Assembly (NCBI RefSeq): GCF_021390495.1
Contig: NZ_JAJEJP010000002.1
Span: 2,356,001-2,420,000 of the forward strand
DNA: 64,000 bases
Reading direction: 5' to 3'
Source: Paraburkholderia sp. ZP32-5
Lineage (GTDB): Bacteria; Pseudomonadota; Gammaproteobacteria; Burkholderiales; Burkholderiaceae
Of this stretch, positions 53,291 to 62,064 are shown piece by piece. The stretch's first letter is position 1, and the number at the start of each line of letters is the position of its first letter. The notes under the pieces are model-generated. The model worked only from the letters and a program-made list of their open reading frames with translations, did no database searches and was not told the DNA's origin. A program made the translations under genes and the position numbers.

Positions 53291-53307
53291 AATGAGATGG
53301 TCACCCC

Positions 53308-53347
53308 CACCCTGCACGCGGGTTACGCTGCAGGGTGTTTTCTTTTC
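53308..53347 (+). terminator. Intrinsic terminator just before the IS110 transposase
   Basis: CACCCTGCA (53308-53316)/TGCAGGGTG (53329-53337) with a T-run (TTTTCTTTTC). It ends 13 bases before the transposase ATG, so it blocks transcription coming from outside the element; such shields against external activation are known for insertion sequences. Confidence 0.7.
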
Positions 53348-53360
53348 TGGAGAGGCCATC

Positions 53361-54386
53361 ATGCAGACCGTGACGCTGGTTGGAGTCGATCTGGGCAAGC
53401 ATTCGTTTCATCTTCACGGTCAGGACCGGCACGGCAAAGCCGTGTTCCGCCGGAAGGTGAGTCGTAAGCAGCTGATTGAATTCTTCGCCACCTTTCACTG
53501 CTGCACGGTGGTCATGGAAGCCTGCGCAGGCGCTCATCACATGGCCCGGAAACTTGCTGGCTTCGGGCATCAGGTCAAACTCATCTCGCCGCAGTTTGTG
53601 CGGCCCTTCGTCAAGAGTAACAAGAACGATTTCGTAGACGCGGAAGCAATCTGCGAAGCAGCGTCACGTCCGGCCATGCGCTTCGTGACGCCCAAGACAG
53701 AATCGCAGCAAACGCTCTCGACCTTGCACCGACTTCGCGAATCTATGGTTCGGGATCGCGTTAAGACATGCAACCAGATGCACGGCTTCCTGCTCGAATT
53801 TGGCATCAGTCTGCCGATTGGAAAGGCTGTCATCAAGCGCCTGCCGGCAGTTCTCTCCGAGCATTCGCTCCCACCGCGACTGGTGGCGATCCTCGATCGT
53901 TTGCATTCCCACTTCAAGTATCTCAGCGAACAGATCGACCAAATCGAGACAGAGCTGACCCGGCAACTGGCCGATGATGACCTTGGCCAGCGCCTGCTAG
54001 GCATCCCGGGTGTCGGTCCGATCACGGCGAGCGTACTCGCCTCCGAAATGGGCGATGGCAAACAGTACGGCTGCAGTCGGGACTTCGCGGCGTCCATCGG
54101 TCTCGTGCCGCGCCAGTACAGTACGGGCGGCAAGGCAAACCTGCTGGGCATCAGCAAACGCGGAGACAAAAATATACGTCGCCTGCTTGTGCAGTGCGCC
54201 AGAGCCTACATGCAGCGGCTGGACCGGCAGACAGGCCGGTTGGCCGCATGGGTTCGGTCGATGCTCACACGCCGACACTCAAACGTGGTGGCCTGCGCTC
54301 TTGCCAACAAGCTGGCGCGAACCGCCTGGGCGCTGGCAACGCGCAACAGCACGTTCGATGCGGGAGCGGGTGCCTTACAAGTCTGA
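53361..54386 (+). CDS. IS110-family transposase
   Basis: 341 residues from the ATG at 53361, with GGAGAGG upstream. Conserved DEDD-type catalytic domain (VTLVGVDLGKHSFHLHGQD; NKNDFVDAEAICEAASRP) and the transposase_20 domain (LLGIPGVGPITASVLASEMGDGKQYGCSRDFAASIGLVPRQYSTGGKANLLGISKRGDKNIRRLL). Full length, no frameshift. Element ends without inverted repeats cannot be defined by eye. Confidence 0.9.
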   Translation: MQTVTLVGVDLGKHSFHLHGQDRHGKAVFRRKVSRKQLIEFFATFHCCTVVMEACAGAHHMARKLAGFGHQVKLISPQFVRPFVKSNKNDFVDAEAICEAASRPAMRFVTPKTESQQTLSTLHRLRESMVRDRVKTCNQMHGFLLEFGISLPIGKAVIKRLPAVLSEHSLPPRLVAILDRLHSHFKYLSEQIDQIETELTRQLADDDLGQRLLGIPGVGPITASVLASEMGDGKQYGCSRDFAASIGLVPRQYSTGGKANLLGISKRGDKNIRRLLVQCARAYMQRLDRQTGRLAAWVRSMLTRRHSNVVACALANKLARTAWALATRNSTFDAGAGALQV

Positions 54387-54805
54387 GCCCCCGACTCTCA
54401 TCCACGCTTTGTGAAGTTCCGACTTCCTGGTTTTGCGACCGCTGAAATTTGATGACGTGAACGGCACACCGGCCTGGCGAACACCCTGTCAAAGAAATTG
54501 GCCTTCGAAGCCGCGGGCTTTTTTAGGATCGTCAGGCGCGATTCTCATCGTGGCGCGGGGAGCGATCCCCACAACGACGCCGGATAGATTTAGGCAAGCC
54601 AACCACAACATCGAAGATCAGTGTTGCAAAAACGGGGGTGACCATAGATTTTCTTTGCGTCCGTTATCGCGCAGATAGTCAGCAAAAGCATGCCGACCGA
54701 TGCGCTAAAGCGTGTCATCAGGAAAGAGGCGATCGCCGAAGTGCTCGCCGGAATCGCTACAATCGCCCGCATGAATTCCCCTCTCAACCGCATCGAGTGC
54801 AAGCC
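54387..54805. other. Intergenic region after the IS110 element
   Basis: 419 bases. A short hairpin (AAGCC/GGCTT at 54508-54520 followed by T5) may terminate transcription leaving the element. The remainder leads into the dioxygenase-like gene; no other gene seen. Confidence 0.4.
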
Positions 54806-55510
54806 ATGCTGACCTCCTATTTCTGGAGTGGCGACGTCATCCGCAGTCGGTGCGTCAGTGACGTCGTACTGTCAGGTACGGTCGACGTGCCTGCGCCGTC
54901 TGTACGTCTACTGGCGGATTGGGAAAGGGAGATATCGACGCGCATGGTGCTGGAGCCTGGCGATGTCGAGGCGATGCCGCTGGCGCGAGCGCGCGCACGT
55001 TGGCCGGACTACACGCGCTGCGTGCAGGCCATGTCCGACCGGACGTCCGCACTGGGGATACCCGAGGTGCTTGCATCAAGTGATGTCGCGCTGATGGCTT
55101 GCCGCGGCGCGAGATACCACTACGACGCCGAGCAATATGGCAGTGCCGCCTTTTGCAATCTCTTTCTGAGTGAGGACCGCGGGCTGGATTTGCATTTTCC
55201 GTCGTTGGGCCGTCGCATTCCACTAACCCGGGGAACAGCGGTGATCTTCGATACGGGCCAGCCTCATGGCGTCATTCGGCGCGGTGCAAGCGGTTTCAAT
55301 GCGGACGACTTCGCGACTGACGACGATTGCGTCCAGATATTTCTGACCTGGGAGCTTCCTATTGAAGATGGTCATGTTACGCACGCACTGAAGGTTGCCT
55401 TCGATGTCGATTCATCGACCTCGTTGCAGCTGGATGACGAACAGGTTCGGCTGGACGGTGAACGGGTCGTCGTGTGTTCTGAGTCTGGGCGTTGGCGTCT
55501 TTTTGAATAA
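54806..55510 (+). CDS. 2-oxoglutarate/Fe(II) dioxygenase-like protein
   Basis: 234 residues from the ATG at 54806. The middle shows a double-stranded beta-helix signature: HYDAEQYG (HxD type metal ligands), CNLFLSEDRGLDLHFPSLGRRIPLTRGTAVIFDTGQPHGVIRR (second His in QPHGV). The enzyme class hydroxylates amino acids, peptides or other small molecules. No close family assigned. The final 50 residues are beta-rich. Confidence 0.6.
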   Translation: MLTSYFWSGDVIRSRCVSDVVLSGTVDVPAPSVRLLADWEREISTRMVLEPGDVEAMPLARARARWPDYTRCVQAMSDRTSALGIPEVLASSDVALMACRGARYHYDAEQYGSAAFCNLFLSEDRGLDLHFPSLGRRIPLTRGTAVIFDTGQPHGVIRRGASGFNADDFATDDDCVQIFLTWELPIEDGHVTHALKVAFDVDSSTSLQLDDEQVRLDGERVVVCSESGRWRLFE

Positions 55511-55938: not shown

Positions 55939-56300
55939 TTAAGAACACTGCGGCAATGAGACCTGGACGAAAGTAAATCGATGCTCCGATAAAAAAATTC
56001 CGGCGAGCAAACCGATCAGGGTCCGCGTAGCTGAAGCGTTGCCGCGACCGCTTCCGTGGCGTGCGGGAAATGCACCCACGCCGCCGCTCAGTTTTTGAGC
56101 AGAGACCTCACGTCGAAAACTGACAGATTGCATCTGTTGAAGACTGGAACTGCCTCATCACGTTACGGCATTGAAAGATTTTTAGAAAATCTTTTTATGA
56201 ATGTTGTTTTTGCTTCAGATCCCGTCCAGTCCCGGAAACGCGCGCCGTGAGTACTTTCAAGCCGGGAAAATGCGATGCGTCCTTTTAAGGAGATAGCGTG

Positions 56301-57914
56301 ATGAGCCGAAAACTGTTCCACGACAGTATTGCAGCACTACCTGCGCAGCCCGGTCCGACCCCGAACGGTCTCAAGGTCAACGCGAAAAGCCCGGCACAAG
56401 ACAGTGACGAAATGAAAGTCACTTTCGCGCTAGGCATCGACGACAAGCTTCGTCAGGAATTAGAGTCTCGCGTGGAAAAAGGTGATGTTGTCCCTATTAG
56501 TGAACTGAACTCGAAATATGCGGTACCTCAGTCGGAGGTCGACCCATTAGTTGCCTATTTGAAAACTCAAGGCTTCAAGATCGATGAAGTATCGAACGAT
56601 CGAACACGTGTGGTGACTCATGCCACTGTGAAGCAGATCGAAAGCAGTCTGCAGGTCAATATGGTTCAGGTTACCCGGGATGGAATCACCTACACCGTTG
56701 CAAAGGACGCGCCGAGCTTACCCTCCGACGTGTCCAACGGCGTTCATGCAATTCTTGGATTACAACCCTGCTTCCATGCTCATAAGCATTTCCGCCGGAT
56801 TACGCCAACCAATCGCTTCGAACCATCCAATCCGGCAAGTAAAACCGGCGAACCTACCGCTGCGCCAAACATCGCCAACTCGCCGCCCTATCTCGTGGGT
56901 GAAATTCTTAAAGCCTACAACGCTGCCGGACTGAACCTCACCGGGAAAGGGCAGATCATTGCAATTCTGATCGATACATTTCCCGCCGATAGCGATCTGC
57001 AGAAGTTCTGGCAACGCAATGGTCTTGCGACCACCATCAACCAGGTTACCAAAATCAACGTCAACGGAGTCACGCTCCCGCAGATTGAAGGCGAGGAAAC
57101 GCTTGACGCGGAGTGGACTAGCGGAATTGCGCCTGACGCGCAGATCCGTATTTATGCCAGCGGCACATTGCAGTTCGCCGATCTGGATCGCGCACTCGAC
57201 CGCATTCTGGCCGATCTCGCTCAATTCCCGGCTATGCGTCAACTGTCCGTCAGTTTGGGGCTGGGCGAAACCTTCATGCAGCAAGGCATCGTTCGAAGCC
57301 AGCACCAGCGATTTCTCCGGCTTGCCGCCGCGGGGGTCAACGTATTCGTTTCCACCGGCGACGCGGGATCGAATCCCGACTCTACCGGACACGCGTCGAA
57401 CGGCCCGTTGCAGGTTGAATTTTCGTCATCCGATCCCTGCGTGGTTGGTGTCGGGGGAACGACACTCGTGCTTGCATCAAACGGCACCGTCAGCAACGAG
57501 ACGGGATGGGCAGACGGCGGTGGCGGCAAAAGCATTCTGTTCCAACGTCCGTCGTGGCAGCAGGGAGACGGTGTACCAGCCGGCACGAACCGGCTCGTCC
57601 CCGATGTCAGTGTCACCGCGGATCCCAATGACGGCGCATTGGTCATCCTGCATGGAAAGCCTGCCCAGATCGGCGGAACGAGTTGGAGCGCTCCTATATG
57701 GGCGGGATTCTGCGCATTGATCAACGAAGCCCGACAGAATGCCGGCAAGCCGCTTCTGCCTTTTCTTAATCCATTGATCTATTCGCTGAAGACCAACTGT
57801 TTCCGGGACATCGTTTCAGGCAGTAACGGCGTGTACACCGCCGGCAAAGGATACGACATGGTCACCGGCTTGGGGGTGCCGGATGTCAAGGCTCTTGTTC
57901 GGGCCTTGTCATGA
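56301..57914 (+). CDS. S53-family (sedolisin/kumamolisin) serine-carboxyl peptidase
   Basis: 537 residues. A pro-domain of Pro-kumamolisin type (about 36-160) precedes the catalytic domain. The residues E265 and D269 (EETLD), D354 (STGDAGS) and S461 (GGTSWSAP) complete the S53 catalytic set, and the Ca2+ site appears as FRDIVSGSNG..GKGYDMVTGLG near the end. No signal peptide is visible, unusual for a normally secreted, acid-active family. AAGGAG precedes the ATG. It is the first gene of the RiPP-like cluster, 90 bases before the small peptide gene, and may process or release the modified peptide. Confidence 0.85.
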   Translation: MSRKLFHDSIAALPAQPGPTPNGLKVNAKSPAQDSDEMKVTFALGIDDKLRQELESRVEKGDVVPISELNSKYAVPQSEVDPLVAYLKTQGFKIDEVSNDRTRVVTHATVKQIESSLQVNMVQVTRDGITYTVAKDAPSLPSDVSNGVHAILGLQPCFHAHKHFRRITPTNRFEPSNPASKTGEPTAAPNIANSPPYLVGEILKAYNAAGLNLTGKGQIIAILIDTFPADSDLQKFWQRNGLATTINQVTKINVNGVTLPQIEGEETLDAEWTSGIAPDAQIRIYASGTLQFADLDRALDRILADLAQFPAMRQLSVSLGLGETFMQQGIVRSQHQRFLRLAAAGVNVFVSTGDAGSNPDSTGHASNGPLQVEFSSSDPCVVGVGGTTLVLASNGTVSNETGWADGGGGKSILFQRPSWQQGDGVPAGTNRLVPDVSVTADPNDGALVILHGKPAQIGGTSWSAPIWAGFCALINEARQNAGKPLLPFLNPLIYSLKTNCFRDIVSGSNGVYTAGKGYDMVTGLGVPDVKALVRALS

Positions 57915-58004
57915 TGAAACGCTTCCGCCCCCGAACGACCTGCCCGCACATTCCGGCATTGCGGATGCAGTGAGGCATTGCCGGAGCCTTTACAGGAGCG
58001 CAAC

Positions 58005-58229
58005 ATGAACACCCCAAAGCTACAGACCAAACGTGCCACATTAGTACTGACTCCGCATCCCAAGCAGCAGACGAAAGATGACGTCCACGCCGTCGTCGAC
58101 GAAATTCTCAAACGCAGTGGCTGCATGACGTGCGGTCTGATCGCACTATTCCATGTCGAATTCGGCGGAGATCCTGGTCCGGATATGATCAAGCGGGGCG
58201 TGATCGCTGCGAATTACGAGAATGCCTAG
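58005..58229 (+). CDS. 74-residue Cys-containing precursor-like peptide
   Basis: Begins MNTPKLQTKRATLVLTPHPK, preceded by AGGAG at the usual distance. No signal peptide. Only two Cys, C40 and C43, in SGCMTCGL, followed by a 30-residue C-terminal segment (LFHVEFGGDPGPDMIKRG.. and AANYENA). Position between an S53 peptidase and a DUF692 enzyme and short size make it a candidate ribosomal precursor for modification at or near the CxxC. No homologue recalled. Cotranscribed: stop 8 bases before the DUF692 start. Confidence 0.7.
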   Translation: MNTPKLQTKRATLVLTPHPKQQTKDDVHAVVDEILKRSGCMTCGLIALFHVEFGGDPGPDMIKRGVIAANYENA

Positions 58230-58237
58230 CTGACACC

Positions 58238-59188
58238 ATGTCTACGCCGACGATGCATGGCGGACTCACTCGCCGACAAACCGGCACGTCGGCCCATGTA
58301 CTGGGGGTTGGTTTCAACTATTTCCCGAGCTTGCCGGCCGATATTTATCATCGACGCCTGATGGACTTCGTCGAGGTCACACCTGAGACGATGTGCAATG
58401 AGCAAAGCACTTCTGACGGGACTATTGAGGTGCTTATACGGGAGCAGCTTGACCGTGCACGGACCATCTGCGGCGAAATGCCGATGGTCGTGCACGGAGT
58501 CCAGCTATCCATCGGTTCGGCGCATGGCTGGAACAGTGCCTATCTCGCCATACTGGATCAGTTGCAGCAGCTGTGGCCTTTCCAATGGCATAGCGAACAC
58601 CTGTCGTTTCAAACATACGAGGACACCGACGGATCGGTAGCGCAGACTGGCACACCACTACCGTTGCCGTTGACCGAAGAAGCTGCCTGCCTCGTAGCAG
58701 ACCGCGGTGCCCAACTACTGCACCGCTATGGCGTGCCTTTCCTGCTTGAAAATCCAGCGCACTACCTGACTGACTTGCCGCGCGAACCTGGGGTCCCCGA
58801 CGAATGCGCGTTAATGAACAGGATCACGCTGTTAAGCGGCTGCGGGCAGTTGCTCGATTTGCACAATCTGTATTGCAACGCCATCAACCATGGCTTCGAC
58901 GCGTTCGAGGTCGTCGAACACTTCGCGCTCGAGCGCGTCGTCGAAATACATGTTGCCGGCGGACACTGGGAAAGCGGCTACTGGACCGACGCGCACGATC
59001 GCGGTGTGCCTGAAACGGTATGGGAACTGCTGGACTACACGCTGCCCCGCTGCAAACATGTCGCTGGCGTCGTGTTTGAACTGCTGGAGCCACACGCAGT
59101 TCGGATAGGTGTAGACGAGATCGCGCGCAATCTGCAACGTGCGCGCGACATATGGTTGCGCCACTGTCCCGACGCGAGAGACACCTGA
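58238..59188 (+). CDS. DUF692 / MNIO multinuclear non-heme iron oxidative enzyme
   Basis: 316 residues of the DUF692 family (MbnB, TglH, ChrH, BufB relatives). Metal-ligand motifs are all present: H86 in VVHGVQLSIGS, H118/E120/H121 in WHSEHLSF, E171-N-P in LLENPAHY, D207...N214...H218 in LLDLHNLYCNAINHGFD, H238 and H243 in VEIHVAGGHW, and H253 (DAHDRGVP). Known members oxidatively rearrange Cys (thio-oxazolone, thiazole, 3-thiaGlu) or Asp residues of peptides. The start at 58238 lies 8 bases after the peptide stop; its stop overlaps the next gene's start. Confidence 0.9.
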   Translation: MSTPTMHGGLTRRQTGTSAHVLGVGFNYFPSLPADIYHRRLMDFVEVTPETMCNEQSTSDGTIEVLIREQLDRARTICGEMPMVVHGVQLSIGSAHGWNSAYLAILDQLQQLWPFQWHSEHLSFQTYEDTDGSVAQTGTPLPLPLTEEAACLVADRGAQLLHRYGVPFLLENPAHYLTDLPREPGVPDECALMNRITLLSGCGQLLDLHNLYCNAINHGFDAFEVVEHFALERVVEIHVAGGHWESGYWTDAHDRGVPETVWELLDYTLPRCKHVAGVVFELLEPHAVRIGVDEIARNLQRARDIWLRHCPDARDT

Positions 59189-59853
59189 TGAGACTCCACG
59201 ATTTTCAGGCGACGCTCGGCCGTGCAATCTCCAGGCATGAACAGCCGCCATCGCTGCCTTGCGTCCAATTTCAGGCAGCGGAACTCGATCAAGTGACCCG
59301 GTTGCTATCAAGTCCAGGCTTTGCTTTTACATGCGACGTGCAACGATCCTGGTGCGAAAGCCGCGTCAAACTGCTCGCGAGACATACGCTCAGCGTACTG
59401 CCACCTGACCGGCGCGACGCGCTGATCTGCGCCTGGGTCGACCATGGCGGAGGACGGAACGCGTTCCGTACTGAGGAAGCCATAGCGTTCCTGGAATTTT
59501 TATCCGCGAACCTCGCGGATGACTCCACGGCTTTGTACTGGTGCCGTGTCGAACAGGCGACCTACCGGGCATCCATGGGACGTCACGCGTTTGCTTCGCC
59601 AGCATGGCCGCGCGATGACACGACGCTAATAGGCCGCGCTCCTGATTCGGCTCTTGTGACCGCTCCACACCTGACGCTGTTCTTTGCGCCGGGTCTTCCT
59701 GATCTTGTTCGTGAAGCAGCACCGCTCGAAGAAGAATTGTGGAGACAACTGCAGTCCGCCAGGACTGTCAGTGTGTTCCCTTCTGCTGTGCACGCGACGT
59801 TGAAGGAGATGCTTTCGGTCGGCATTCTTGCTGTCGTATCGTCCGGCGTTTAA
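59188..59853 (+). CDS. DUF692 partner (DUF2063/TglI/MbnC-like) protein
   Basis: 221 residues. Starts at the ATG that overlaps the MNIO stop (TGATG). N-terminal MRLHDFQATLGRAISRHEQ resembles the start of DUF2063 proteins; the rest (RLLSSPGFAFTCDVQRSWCESRVKLL, YWCRVEQATYRASMGR) is helical and not assigned further. In characterised systems such partners bind the precursor leader and the MNIO enzyme. Shorter than most (about 250). Confidence 0.7.
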   Translation: MRLHDFQATLGRAISRHEQPPSLPCVQFQAAELDQVTRLLSSPGFAFTCDVQRSWCESRVKLLARHTLSVLPPDRRDALICAWVDHGGGRNAFRTEEAIAFLEFLSANLADDSTALYWCRVEQATYRASMGRHAFASPAWPRDDTTLIGRAPDSALVTAPHLTLFFAPGLPDLVREAAPLEEELWRQLQSARTVSVFPSAVHATLKEMLSVGILAVVSSGV

Positions 59854-59873
59854 AGCAAAGCGCTAGCACGTGG

Positions 59874-59922
59874 ACGCCCCGGTCAAGCCGGGGCGCCAGC
59901 AAACAACAGCGAACCGTTATAC
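59874..59922. repeat. Copy A of a repeated terminator-plus-tail element
   Basis: Hairpin CGCCCCGG (59875-59882)/CCGGGGCG (59888-59895) followed by GCAAACAACAG and GAACCGTTAT. The same hairpin and tail, with few changes, occurs at 62983-63032. Between the convergent MNIO partner and SDR genes, where it can serve as terminator. Confidence 0.65.
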
Positions 59923-59944
59923 CTTTGCAGCCGGATGCCCTGCG

Positions 59945-60712
59945 TCAGGCAATCCATCCACCGTCGACGGTCAGGCTCTCGCCCGTCGTGAAGCCTGCTT
60001 CGGGGCTGGCGAGATAAGCCACGGCCGCCGCGATTTCCGCCGGTTTGCCGAAGCGACCCACGCTTGCGAGCTTTGTCATCGTTGCGTGGTCTTCCGTGCC
60101 GGGTTGCGGAGCAAGTTCTGTCTCGGTCGGGCCGGGCTGGACGGCATTCACGGTCACGCCGTATTTGCCGACTTCACGCGATAGCCCGCGAGTGAAGCCT
60201 CTGAGCGCGAACTTCGATGCGATATAGAGCGTCACGCCCGGCAGTGGCGCGGCTTCACCAAAGGCCGAGCCCACGTTGATAATGCGTCCCCAGCCCGCCG
60301 CGACCATTCGCGCCGCGGCGTCTTTTGCCAGTTCGATCGGTGCACGAACATTCAGATTGAAGTGGGTGTCGTATGACGTCTCCGAAGAATCGAGGAATGG
60401 TCCGTACTCGACCGTGCCCGCGTTGTTGACCAGGATGTCGAGGCGCCCCTCGAAGCGTCCGCCGAACGCACCGCTCAGCGAATCGATCAGGCTCTTGACG
60501 CCTTCCAGCGTCGACAGGTTGGCGCCCACGGCTTCAGCCTCGCCGCCGGCACCGCGGATCTCCTCGACGACTGCTTCGGCCCGCGCCTGATTTGACGCAT
60601 AGTGAACGATCACCGCTGCGCCGTCGCGCGCAAGACGTGCCGCAATAGCGGCACCGATTCCACGCGAAGCGCCCGTAACGAGGGCGAGTTTGCCTTTCAG
60701 ACCTTGGGTCAT
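59945..60712 (-). CDS. SDR-family oxidoreductase
   Basis: 255 residues from the ATG at 60712 (GAGG upstream). Classical SDR: TGASRGIGAAIAARLA, NNAG, SAFGEAAP, YIASK, and C-terminal PAEIAAAVAYLASPEAGFTTGESLTVDGG. Reaction unknown. A longer upstream reading was rejected. Same strand as the LysR gene upstream. Confidence 0.85.
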   Translation of the reverse strand: MTQGLKGKLALVTGASRGIGAAIAARLARDGAAVIVHYASNQARAEAVVEEIRGAGGEAEAVGANLSTLEGVKSLIDSLSGAFGGRFEGRLDILVNNAGTVEYGPFLDSSETSYDTHFNLNVRAPIELAKDAAARMVAAGWGRIINVGSAFGEAAPLPGVTLYIASKFALRGFTRGLSREVGKYGVTVNAVQPGPTETELAPQPGTEDHATMTKLASVGRFGKPAEIAAAVAYLASPEAGFTTGESLTVDGGWIA

Positions 60713-60918
60713 GGTTTTCCTCAACAGATAGGTTTCGAAGCGGTCCTCCGGCCTGGACGGCCAGAACGGACTGTTGCATCGGAGCCAATGTTTTCGTGCA
60801 TTGGTTGATGCGTATCCTCCGCCCGGGTGGCTTCGTTCGGTAGCCACGGGTGAGGAATAGCTTCTATTCCTGCTGCGAGGGAGCAGATCAGGGCAGTGAG
60901 TGCGCGGGCACGAAGCGG

Positions 60919-61833
60919 TTAGGCGGTGAGGCCCTCGCTGGATTTGCGCTCGTTGAGCAGGTGCTCGACAAACGCGACGAAGGCGCGCGCCTTCGTGGTT
61001 GCCATGCGGCCGGACGGGAAAACGGCCCACAGGTCGATCGGCGGCAACGTCCAGTCTGTCAGAACGGCCTGAACTGTGCCGTCCGCAAGTTCGGGGGCGA
61101 ACATCCATTCCGAAGCGACGGCCAGGCCGAGGTGAGCGAGTACCGCCGTGCGCATGCCCTCAGCTGCGTTCACGCTTATTCGGCCTGACAGGGTCACGCT
61201 GGAGTCAGAGCCGTCATTGCGGCTGAACAGCCACGATTCACCGCCGCCTCGCACGGAATAAACGACCGCCTGATGTCGGCCAAGATCGTCAGGTGTTTGC
61301 GGAAGTCCGGCTTCCGCGAAATACGCCGGTGTGCCGACGACGAGCCGCCGCCCAGAGGAGATGCGACGCGCAGTCATCGTCGAATCGTCGAGAGCACCCA
61401 TACGCAATGCGACATCGACGCCCTCTTCGAGCAAGTCGACGGACCTGTCGTCAAGCACGATATCGATGCTCAGATTGGGATGCTGATCGAGGAAAGACTT
61501 GAGTGCCGGCAAGACATGCAGCCGGGCGAAGGTGACGGCCGCGCCGATGCGCAGTCGTCCGGACAAGCCATCCGACGACTCACGCACGGCCTGTTCGGCG
61601 TGCTCCGCCTCATCGATGGCTCTGACAGCGTGATCGTAAAACCGTTGACCAGCATCCGTCGGCGCGAGGCCACGCGTCGACCTGAGTAGCAGACGGGCGC
61701 CCAGACGTTCCTCCAACTGCGCGACAGCCTTTGAAACGGCGGGTTGACCAAGCTTCAACCGGCGTGCGGCGGCAGAAAATGAACCCGCATCGACGACTGT
61801 TACGAAAGTCTCCATCGCGACCATGCGGTCCAT
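60919..61833 (-). CDS. LysR-family transcriptional regulator
   Basis: 304 residues: HTH (METFVTVVDAGSFSAAARRLKLGQPAVSKAVAQLEERLGARLL) and effector domain (LSGRLRIGAAVTFARLHVLPALKSFLDQHPNLSIDIVLDDRSVDLLEEGVDVALRMG). Start at 61833 has AGGAGA six bases upstream; the ATG 6 bases further up is too close to the site. Likely regulates the SDR gene 206 bases downstream. Confidence 0.85.
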   Translation of the reverse strand: MDRMVAMETFVTVVDAGSFSAAARRLKLGQPAVSKAVAQLEERLGARLLLRSTRGLAPTDAGQRFYDHAVRAIDEAEHAEQAVRESSDGLSGRLRIGAAVTFARLHVLPALKSFLDQHPNLSIDIVLDDRSVDLLEEGVDVALRMGALDDSTMTARRISSGRRLVVGTPAYFAEAGLPQTPDDLGRHQAVVYSVRGGGESWLFSRNDGSDSSVTLSGRISVNAAEGMRTAVLAHLGLAVASEWMFAPELADGTVQAVLTDWTLPPIDLWAVFPSGRMATTKARAFVAFVEHLLNERKSSEGLTA

Positions 61834-62064
61834 GTGCATTCTCCTGGCAGGTTGTCGGCGCAAGAGCGCAGTGTAACGAAACGACCGGCCTTCACGGACA
61901 AAGCACACGTTGTCCGGCGCTGACGTTACGTAGCGCGATTAAATGCGGCGAGCTTTTGTTGTTTGCTGAATCCGATGACTGCTTTCGAATGGAGATCGGC
62001 CCCCTGATAGCGTGCCTGGTAATTTTCCAGACCAGCGGATCGAGCTGATCGCGTTGCGTCGCGC

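Follow-up and report, generated by a model that had tools for sequence, protein, structure and literature searches.

Which of the four adjacent genes at 56301-59853 of the window belong together, and what would they make? The window is a stretch of 64,000 nucleotides from Paraburkholderia sp. ZP32-5 (contig NZ_JAJEJP010000002.1, positions 2,356,001 to 2,420,000), and positions given without a locus name refer to it. The genes encode an S53 (sedolisin) peptidase, a short peptide, an enzyme of the MNIO (DUF692) family and a partner protein. A first-pass annotation had read all four as one compact operon for a ribosomally synthesized and post-translationally modified peptide (RiPP). Its observation is confirmed: four open reading frames (ORFs) of the lengths given lie on the same strand, with an 8-nt gap between the peptide and MNIO genes and a 1-nt overlap between the MNIO and partner genes. 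Its interpretation as a whole is partly supported. Most probably, the last three genes (58005-59853) form a minimal MNIO RiPP operon in which the partner would present the peptide to the MNIO and C43 of the peptide would be oxidized, while the S53 gene would be unlinked to it. This operon has been little studied, but it is a relative of known MNIO peptide operons.

The recurrence of the trio carries this reading. A scan of the genome collection with a profile of 36 MNIOs (alignment A1; 36 of the 120 listed from 1750 MNIO relatives) yielded 14 loci, and a scan with the single MNIO sequence found nothing. Since the 14 loci were chosen by the exact words WPFxWHSE or FLLENPA[HY], they sample this clade only. 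The partner gene follows the MNIO gene at all 14. A homologous peptide of 68-80 aa (start codons chosen in the analysis) is encoded directly upstream of the MNIO at 12, and the remaining two have a CxxC peptide with a different type of leader. Eleven of the 14 are from metagenome-assembled genomes, and the hosts (Terriglobia, Bryobacterales, Pyrinomonadaceae, Sphingomonads, Acetobacteraceae and others) belong to Acidobacteriota, Alphaproteobacteria and a few other groups. Flanking genes are unlike between most loci. Beyond MNIO, partner and peptide, coarse clustering found no family of ORFs at least 90 aa long that more than three of 15 loci have in common; it placed only 13 MNIOs and 11 partners of these loci in families, because overlapping ORFs were dropped, and the counts of 14 come from a separate check of the loci. 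Conserved co-occurrence across distant genomes is therefore found for the peptide-MNIO-partner part, and to this extent the reading as a compact operon, in which an MNIO is accompanied by a CxxC peptide and a TglI-like partner, is upheld.

The MNIO matches the Pfam family MbnB_TglH_ChrH (PF05114) with 159.7 bits (cut-off 25); no other PF05114 match was found in its genome (9.09 Mb, four contigs). The metal ligands noted on first reading are all present: H86, H121, E171, D207, N210, H238, D251, H253 and E281 are the putative counterparts of the nine TglH iron ligands H71, H107, E151, D184, N187, H216, D229, H231 and E258 (PMC10880893, source available in part). The last seven were mapped by alignment to TglH (8hci), H86 and H121 via the 3bww alignment and spacing. 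None of the nine positions varies among the 36 sequences of A1, the query among them. In the MNIO tree a branch with 100/100 support separates the 36 clade members from 34 other MNIOs; 29 of the latter come from the same genus, and at least 12 have a signal-peptide Cys precursor encoded upstream (judged by eye). The window MNIO stays below the cut-off of every characterized NCBIfam equivalog, with BufB as the nearest model (bits/cut-off: BufB 134.9/310, HvfB 112.1/360, ApyH 88.8/400, ChrH 75.2/600, MbnB 11.3/325).

The partner consists of a helical N-terminal domain (about residues 1-132) and a C-terminal domain (about 136-221) resembling RiPP recognition element (RRE) domains. Its predicted structure best matches TglI and NGO1945. 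Its profile matches that of 12 partners of other MNIOs with a probability of 87 (E 4e-6), compared with 0.2 for a control MNIO profile; these partners were sought at 16 of the 34 loci, of which 14 gave an ORF and 12 could be aligned. No match to PF09836 (DUF2063), the signature of PME-type 1 partners, was detected in the window partner or in the 10 scanned of 14 relatives, and all four scanned partners of other MNIOs match as a control. Hence, of the earlier description as 'DUF2063/TglI-like', the TglI part is borne out by fold and profile comparison, and the DUF2063 part finds no Pfam match. The position after the MNIO gene, the lack of a DUF2063 signature, the predicted NGO1945/TglI-like fold and the RRE-type C-terminus are those of PME-type 2 partners. 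In the groups examined by the authors of PMC12452194, precursors that lack a signal peptide go with such partners.

This agrees with the peptide. No signal peptide is visible by hydropathy or by eye (best 12-residue mean 0.37, compared with a median of 0.97 and a maximum of 1.97 in the listed relatives), and Cys occurs only at positions 40 and 43, as first described. The peptide thus has neither a visible Sec signal nor the four or more conserved Cys of bufferin-type precursors. No Pfam, NCBIfam or PHROG family matches the peptide, and its profile finds nothing in the PDB better than E 0.15. A single-sequence query gave three matches, itself among them; a profile broadened the set to 182 proteins at E<=0.01, and conservation was computed on 120 listed ones, query included (35 of them in alignment A3). 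Q22, C43 and P57 are invariant in these 120, G44 is kept in 119, C40 and with it the CxxC motif in 118, and D56 in 117; 119 peptides have exactly two Cys and one has three. At L041, L044 and L045, C40 is replaced by Ala and another Cys lies near the N-terminus, while C43, MNIO and partner are kept. Consequently, C43 is the better candidate for modification. In three pairs of related peptides change is mainly synonymous (pS/pN 0.25/0.006, 0.15/0.030 and 0.50/0.175). An AlphaFold2 model of modest confidence (mean pLDDT only 68.6) predicts a helix at residues 24-37 with the Cys residues in the loop after it.

Two sister loci carry a related arrangement. At L038:38-4981 one operon encodes, in this order, a peptide with a double-glycine-type leader, an HlyD-like protein (assigned by similarity to the L039 gene), an ABC transporter with C39 peptidase, the MNIO and the partner. 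The L038 core (CPTC), ILGRSGCPTCSRV, gives a weak match to the peptide profile (17.6 bits, E 2e-4 in a small ORF set) and has Ser after the second Cys instead of the prevailing Gly. At L039:5666-10894 a double-glycine-type peptide ends in LCTTCGLMQPFPVEKLA, genes for HlyD and a C39 transporter lie upstream, and MNIO and partner are present. Both loci are placed apart in the MNIO tree, where backbone support is weak. Leader and exporter together favour the C-terminal CxxC part as the product, which is probably exported at these two loci. A literature search for MNIO together with Peptidase C39 or double-glycine found no such combination among the matches listed.

How might the three proteins act? 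The RRE-like domain of the partner may bind the N-terminal part of the peptide, so that the loop after helix 24-37 would be presented to the MNIO. Its multi-iron centre would then use O2 to oxidize C43 of the conserved Cys-Gly dyad. We infer oxidation of C43 from the TglH ligand counterparts, the Gly that follows C43 in nearly all listed peptides, and the preference, not a strict one, of the 5-thiooxazole MNIO FonB for a small residue after Cys (PMC13097082, source available in part). The simplest guess for the product is a 5-thiooxazole as in captophorins. C40 could be either a second target or a metal ligand, and the mature product might be a small cytosolic Cys-modified peptide, probably metal-binding.

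Several points weigh against this. Collecting the 120 peptides by profile and by shared words biases the set towards the motif, and the profile missed the L038 peptide in the genome search and did not detect that of L039. Conservation downstream of the core (D56-P57, G65, S68) is about as strong as in the core itself, an unusual pattern for a RiPP that is closer to that of a folded mini-protein. The 5-thiooxazole guess is weak, since the MNIO lies far under all equivalog cut-offs. According to the available part of PMC13097082, FonB also accepted a Cys-Tyr substrate, other captophorin families vary around the Cys, and 5-thiooxazole MNIOs pair with PME-type 1 partners, unlike the window MNIO. 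The chemistry cannot be read from sequence.

Among the competing explanations, the one that survives best, unlikely as we consider it, is that MNIO and partner crosslink or rearrange both C40 and C43 into a ChrH-like macrocycle without a thiooxazole at C43. The near-constant CxxC motif and the distance of the MNIO from the thiooxazole-forming equivalogs would suit such a reaction. It accords poorly with L041, L044 and L045, where Ala replaces C40 beside an intact MNIO and partner, with the constancy of C43 in the listed peptides, and with the weak match to the ChrH model.

Since the partner folds best onto TglI, the chemistry may instead be a TglHI-like loss of the Cys beta-carbon (C-beta excision, -14 Da), to which we give a small chance. 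The TglA-TglHI system (3-thiaglutamate) shares with the window operon an MNIO with nine iron ligands (putative counterparts in the window), a partner of helical domain plus RRE as the best structural match, and a precursor that lacks a signal peptide. In TglA, however, the Cys is added to the C-terminus by TglB, as described in the available part of PMC10880893, whereas the window peptide has an internal Cys-Gly.

Equally improbable is that the peptide is a small metal-binding or redox subunit serving the MNIO, with the true substrate elsewhere. Conservation of much of the peptide beyond the core and the lack of any further shared ORF family of that size speak for this. On the other hand, MNIO precursors are usually the small Cys protein encoded upstream (PMC12452194, available part), and the double-glycine-type leaders and C39 exporters of L038 and L039 fit a precursor, not a subunit. 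Oxidation of C43 in a precursor peptide remains our preferred explanation.

The S53 protein, which matches Pfam Pro-kuma_activ, had been counted as a member of the operon. A hidden Markov model of 12 S53 proteins found no match in the 14 trio loci (231,906 bases; flanks of at most 10 kb, cut short in places by contig ends); these loci do not include that of BR10937, the source of the nearest named relatives. The neighbourhood comparison that had been proposed for S53, MNIO and CxxC peptide thus speaks against membership. Among 141 genomes of the genus the only close S53 relative is that of G047 (87% identical). DNA similarity to G047 spans only 56280-57907, and 19 kb around its S53 gene contain no peptide or MNIO match and only insignificant partner matches (E>=0.029). 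Conversely, G053 carries 59942-61883 at 87.6%, and neither S53 nor the trio was found in 19 kb around that segment. Because G047 covers only the S53 side and G053 only the downstream side, S53 and trio appear to be bounded separately. Some S53 protein at E<=1e-30 occurs in 127 of the 141 genomes, the own genome included, so that a chance neighbour is unsurprising. Hence the S53 gene seems to be a neighbour with no tie to the trio, and the operon does not appear to be protease-based.

Some features would fit a dedicated leader peptidase nevertheless. The S53 gene lies on the same strand 90 nt upstream of the peptide gene, and as the gap contains no terminator-like site, co-transcription is possible; no unusual RNA fold was found in the gap (z 0.82). 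When the protein is aligned to kumamolisin, the E/D/D/S positions, which we take to be catalytic, prove to be kept. A C39 exporter protease was seen only at L038 and L039, and leader removal elsewhere, if any, would otherwise be unexplained. Sedolisins, however, work under acidic conditions and for the most part extracellularly, a setting that speaks against such a role. A literature search for sedolisin, kumamolisin and RiPP gave no publication on MNIOs, judged by title. With no S53 match at the 14 trio loci, a G047 relative standing apart from peptide and MNIO within 19 kb, and S53 proteins in most of the 141 genomes of the genus, we rejected S53 as an operon member and regard a leader-peptidase function as very improbable. 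Separately, a short stretch at L058:3208-3276 (G047), some 5 kb away from the complete S53 gene, resembles the S53 C-terminus (56%, E 0.009); it is perhaps a remnant or a chance similarity.

Among the genomes searched, the three-gene cassette seems to be rare. The peptide profile matched one of 299 genomes of the family (its own), three of 249 of the family of L043 (all three already among the loci of the MNIO scan) and four of 299 of the class of L032 (three already known and one weak). Misses are possible, because scoring was confined to about 19-23 first-look candidates per genome. At E<=1e-32 the window MNIO matched none but its own among 369 genomes of the class, and at E<=1e-28 there were five other matches, with 35-40% identity, among 398 genomes of the phylum. 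No relative was found on plasmids (E<=1e-30) or viral contigs. The nearest named relatives of both peptide and MNIO are from the Paraburkholderia sp. BR10937 mentioned above. A marginal peptide-profile match in G410 (E 0.0065, one in-frame stop) was taken as noise. Another match, at G909:C2:2161480-2161677 (L073; E 9.5e-7, one in-frame stop), is possibly a decayed copy.

Features of the locus are listed below. For the S53 gene an alternative GTG start is possible 3 nt upstream of 56301. Further upstream lie genes for an FkbM-type methyltransferase (PF05050; 52422-53192) and an IS110-family transposase (53292-54386), and an ORF at 54638-55510, about 790 nt from the S53 gene, with a weak cupin match only, perhaps an iron/2-oxoglutarate oxygenase (by eye). 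The segment 59942-61883 carries an SDR and a LysR gene (assigned by eye).

Coordinates of the S53 gene and the three-gene cassette in the window
Feature	Position	Strand	Remarks
S53 (kumamolisin-like) peptidase with activation domain	56301..57914	+	537 aa; judged a neighbour, not a member of the system
Precursor peptide (putative)	58005..58229	+	74 aa; N-terminal part, predicted helix (24-37), then G39-C40-x-x-C43-G44 core
Codons C40-M-T-C43	58122..58133	+	putative modification site; C43 is the invariant Cys
MNIO (DUF692) enzyme	58238..59188	+	316 aa
MNIO partner protein (PME-type 2-like)	59188..59853	+	221 aa
Cassette extent	57915..59941	+	limits set by relatives (G047 on one side, G053 on the other)

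Known systems place the operon further. In common with captophorins, bufferins and oxazolin (BufABC, FonABC, HvfABC), the window operon has the gene order precursor-MNIO-partner and a small residue after a Cys, and its MNIO comes nearest to the NCBIfam model BufB. It differs from them in that no Sec signal peptide is visible, the peptide has just two Cys, the partner has no DUF2063 score and the MNIO lies across the 100/100 branch. Captophorins are defined by a 5-thiooxazole with an absorbance near 305 nm (PMC13097082, available part). With chryseobasin (ChrH), aminopyruvatide (ApyH) and methanobactin (MbnBC) the MNIO superfamily is in common. Closest by description is adjamnio-7 (WP_078758616): small CxxC precursors without a signal peptide, in gene clusters with MNIOs of sequence similarity network cluster 7 (Antoine et al. 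2025, PMC12452194, available part). Its representative is from Novilysobacter; among the 369 class genomes only the own genome matched the window MNIO at E<=1e-32. The proposal of a new class agrees with the lack of a Pfam, NCBIfam or PHROG match for the peptide, but signal-peptide-less CxxC precursors beside MNIOs are already described. If the window peptide and adjamnio-7 are the same family, the operon would belong to an already described one.

The unusual oxidations that MNIO enzymes catalyse lead to different outcomes in different clades, and the window clade passes no characterized NCBIfam model. With only three genes and one invariant Cys in the precursor, the operon would be a particularly simple system for testing how an MNIO acts on an internal Cys together with a PME-type 2-like partner. 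The sister loci with double-glycine leaders and C39 transporters point to a way of exporting the product freed of its leader, and their CxxC cores behind such leaders suggest that the core is modular. Tentatively, and with less confidence than in the operon itself, we propose that a little-studied MNIO clade, seen here mostly in uncultured bacteria and rare in Paraburkholderia, may make a conserved cytosolic mini-protein with one modified Cys-Gly, forming a new heterocycle or metal site, the modular core of which would be exported by a C39 transporter at two loci.

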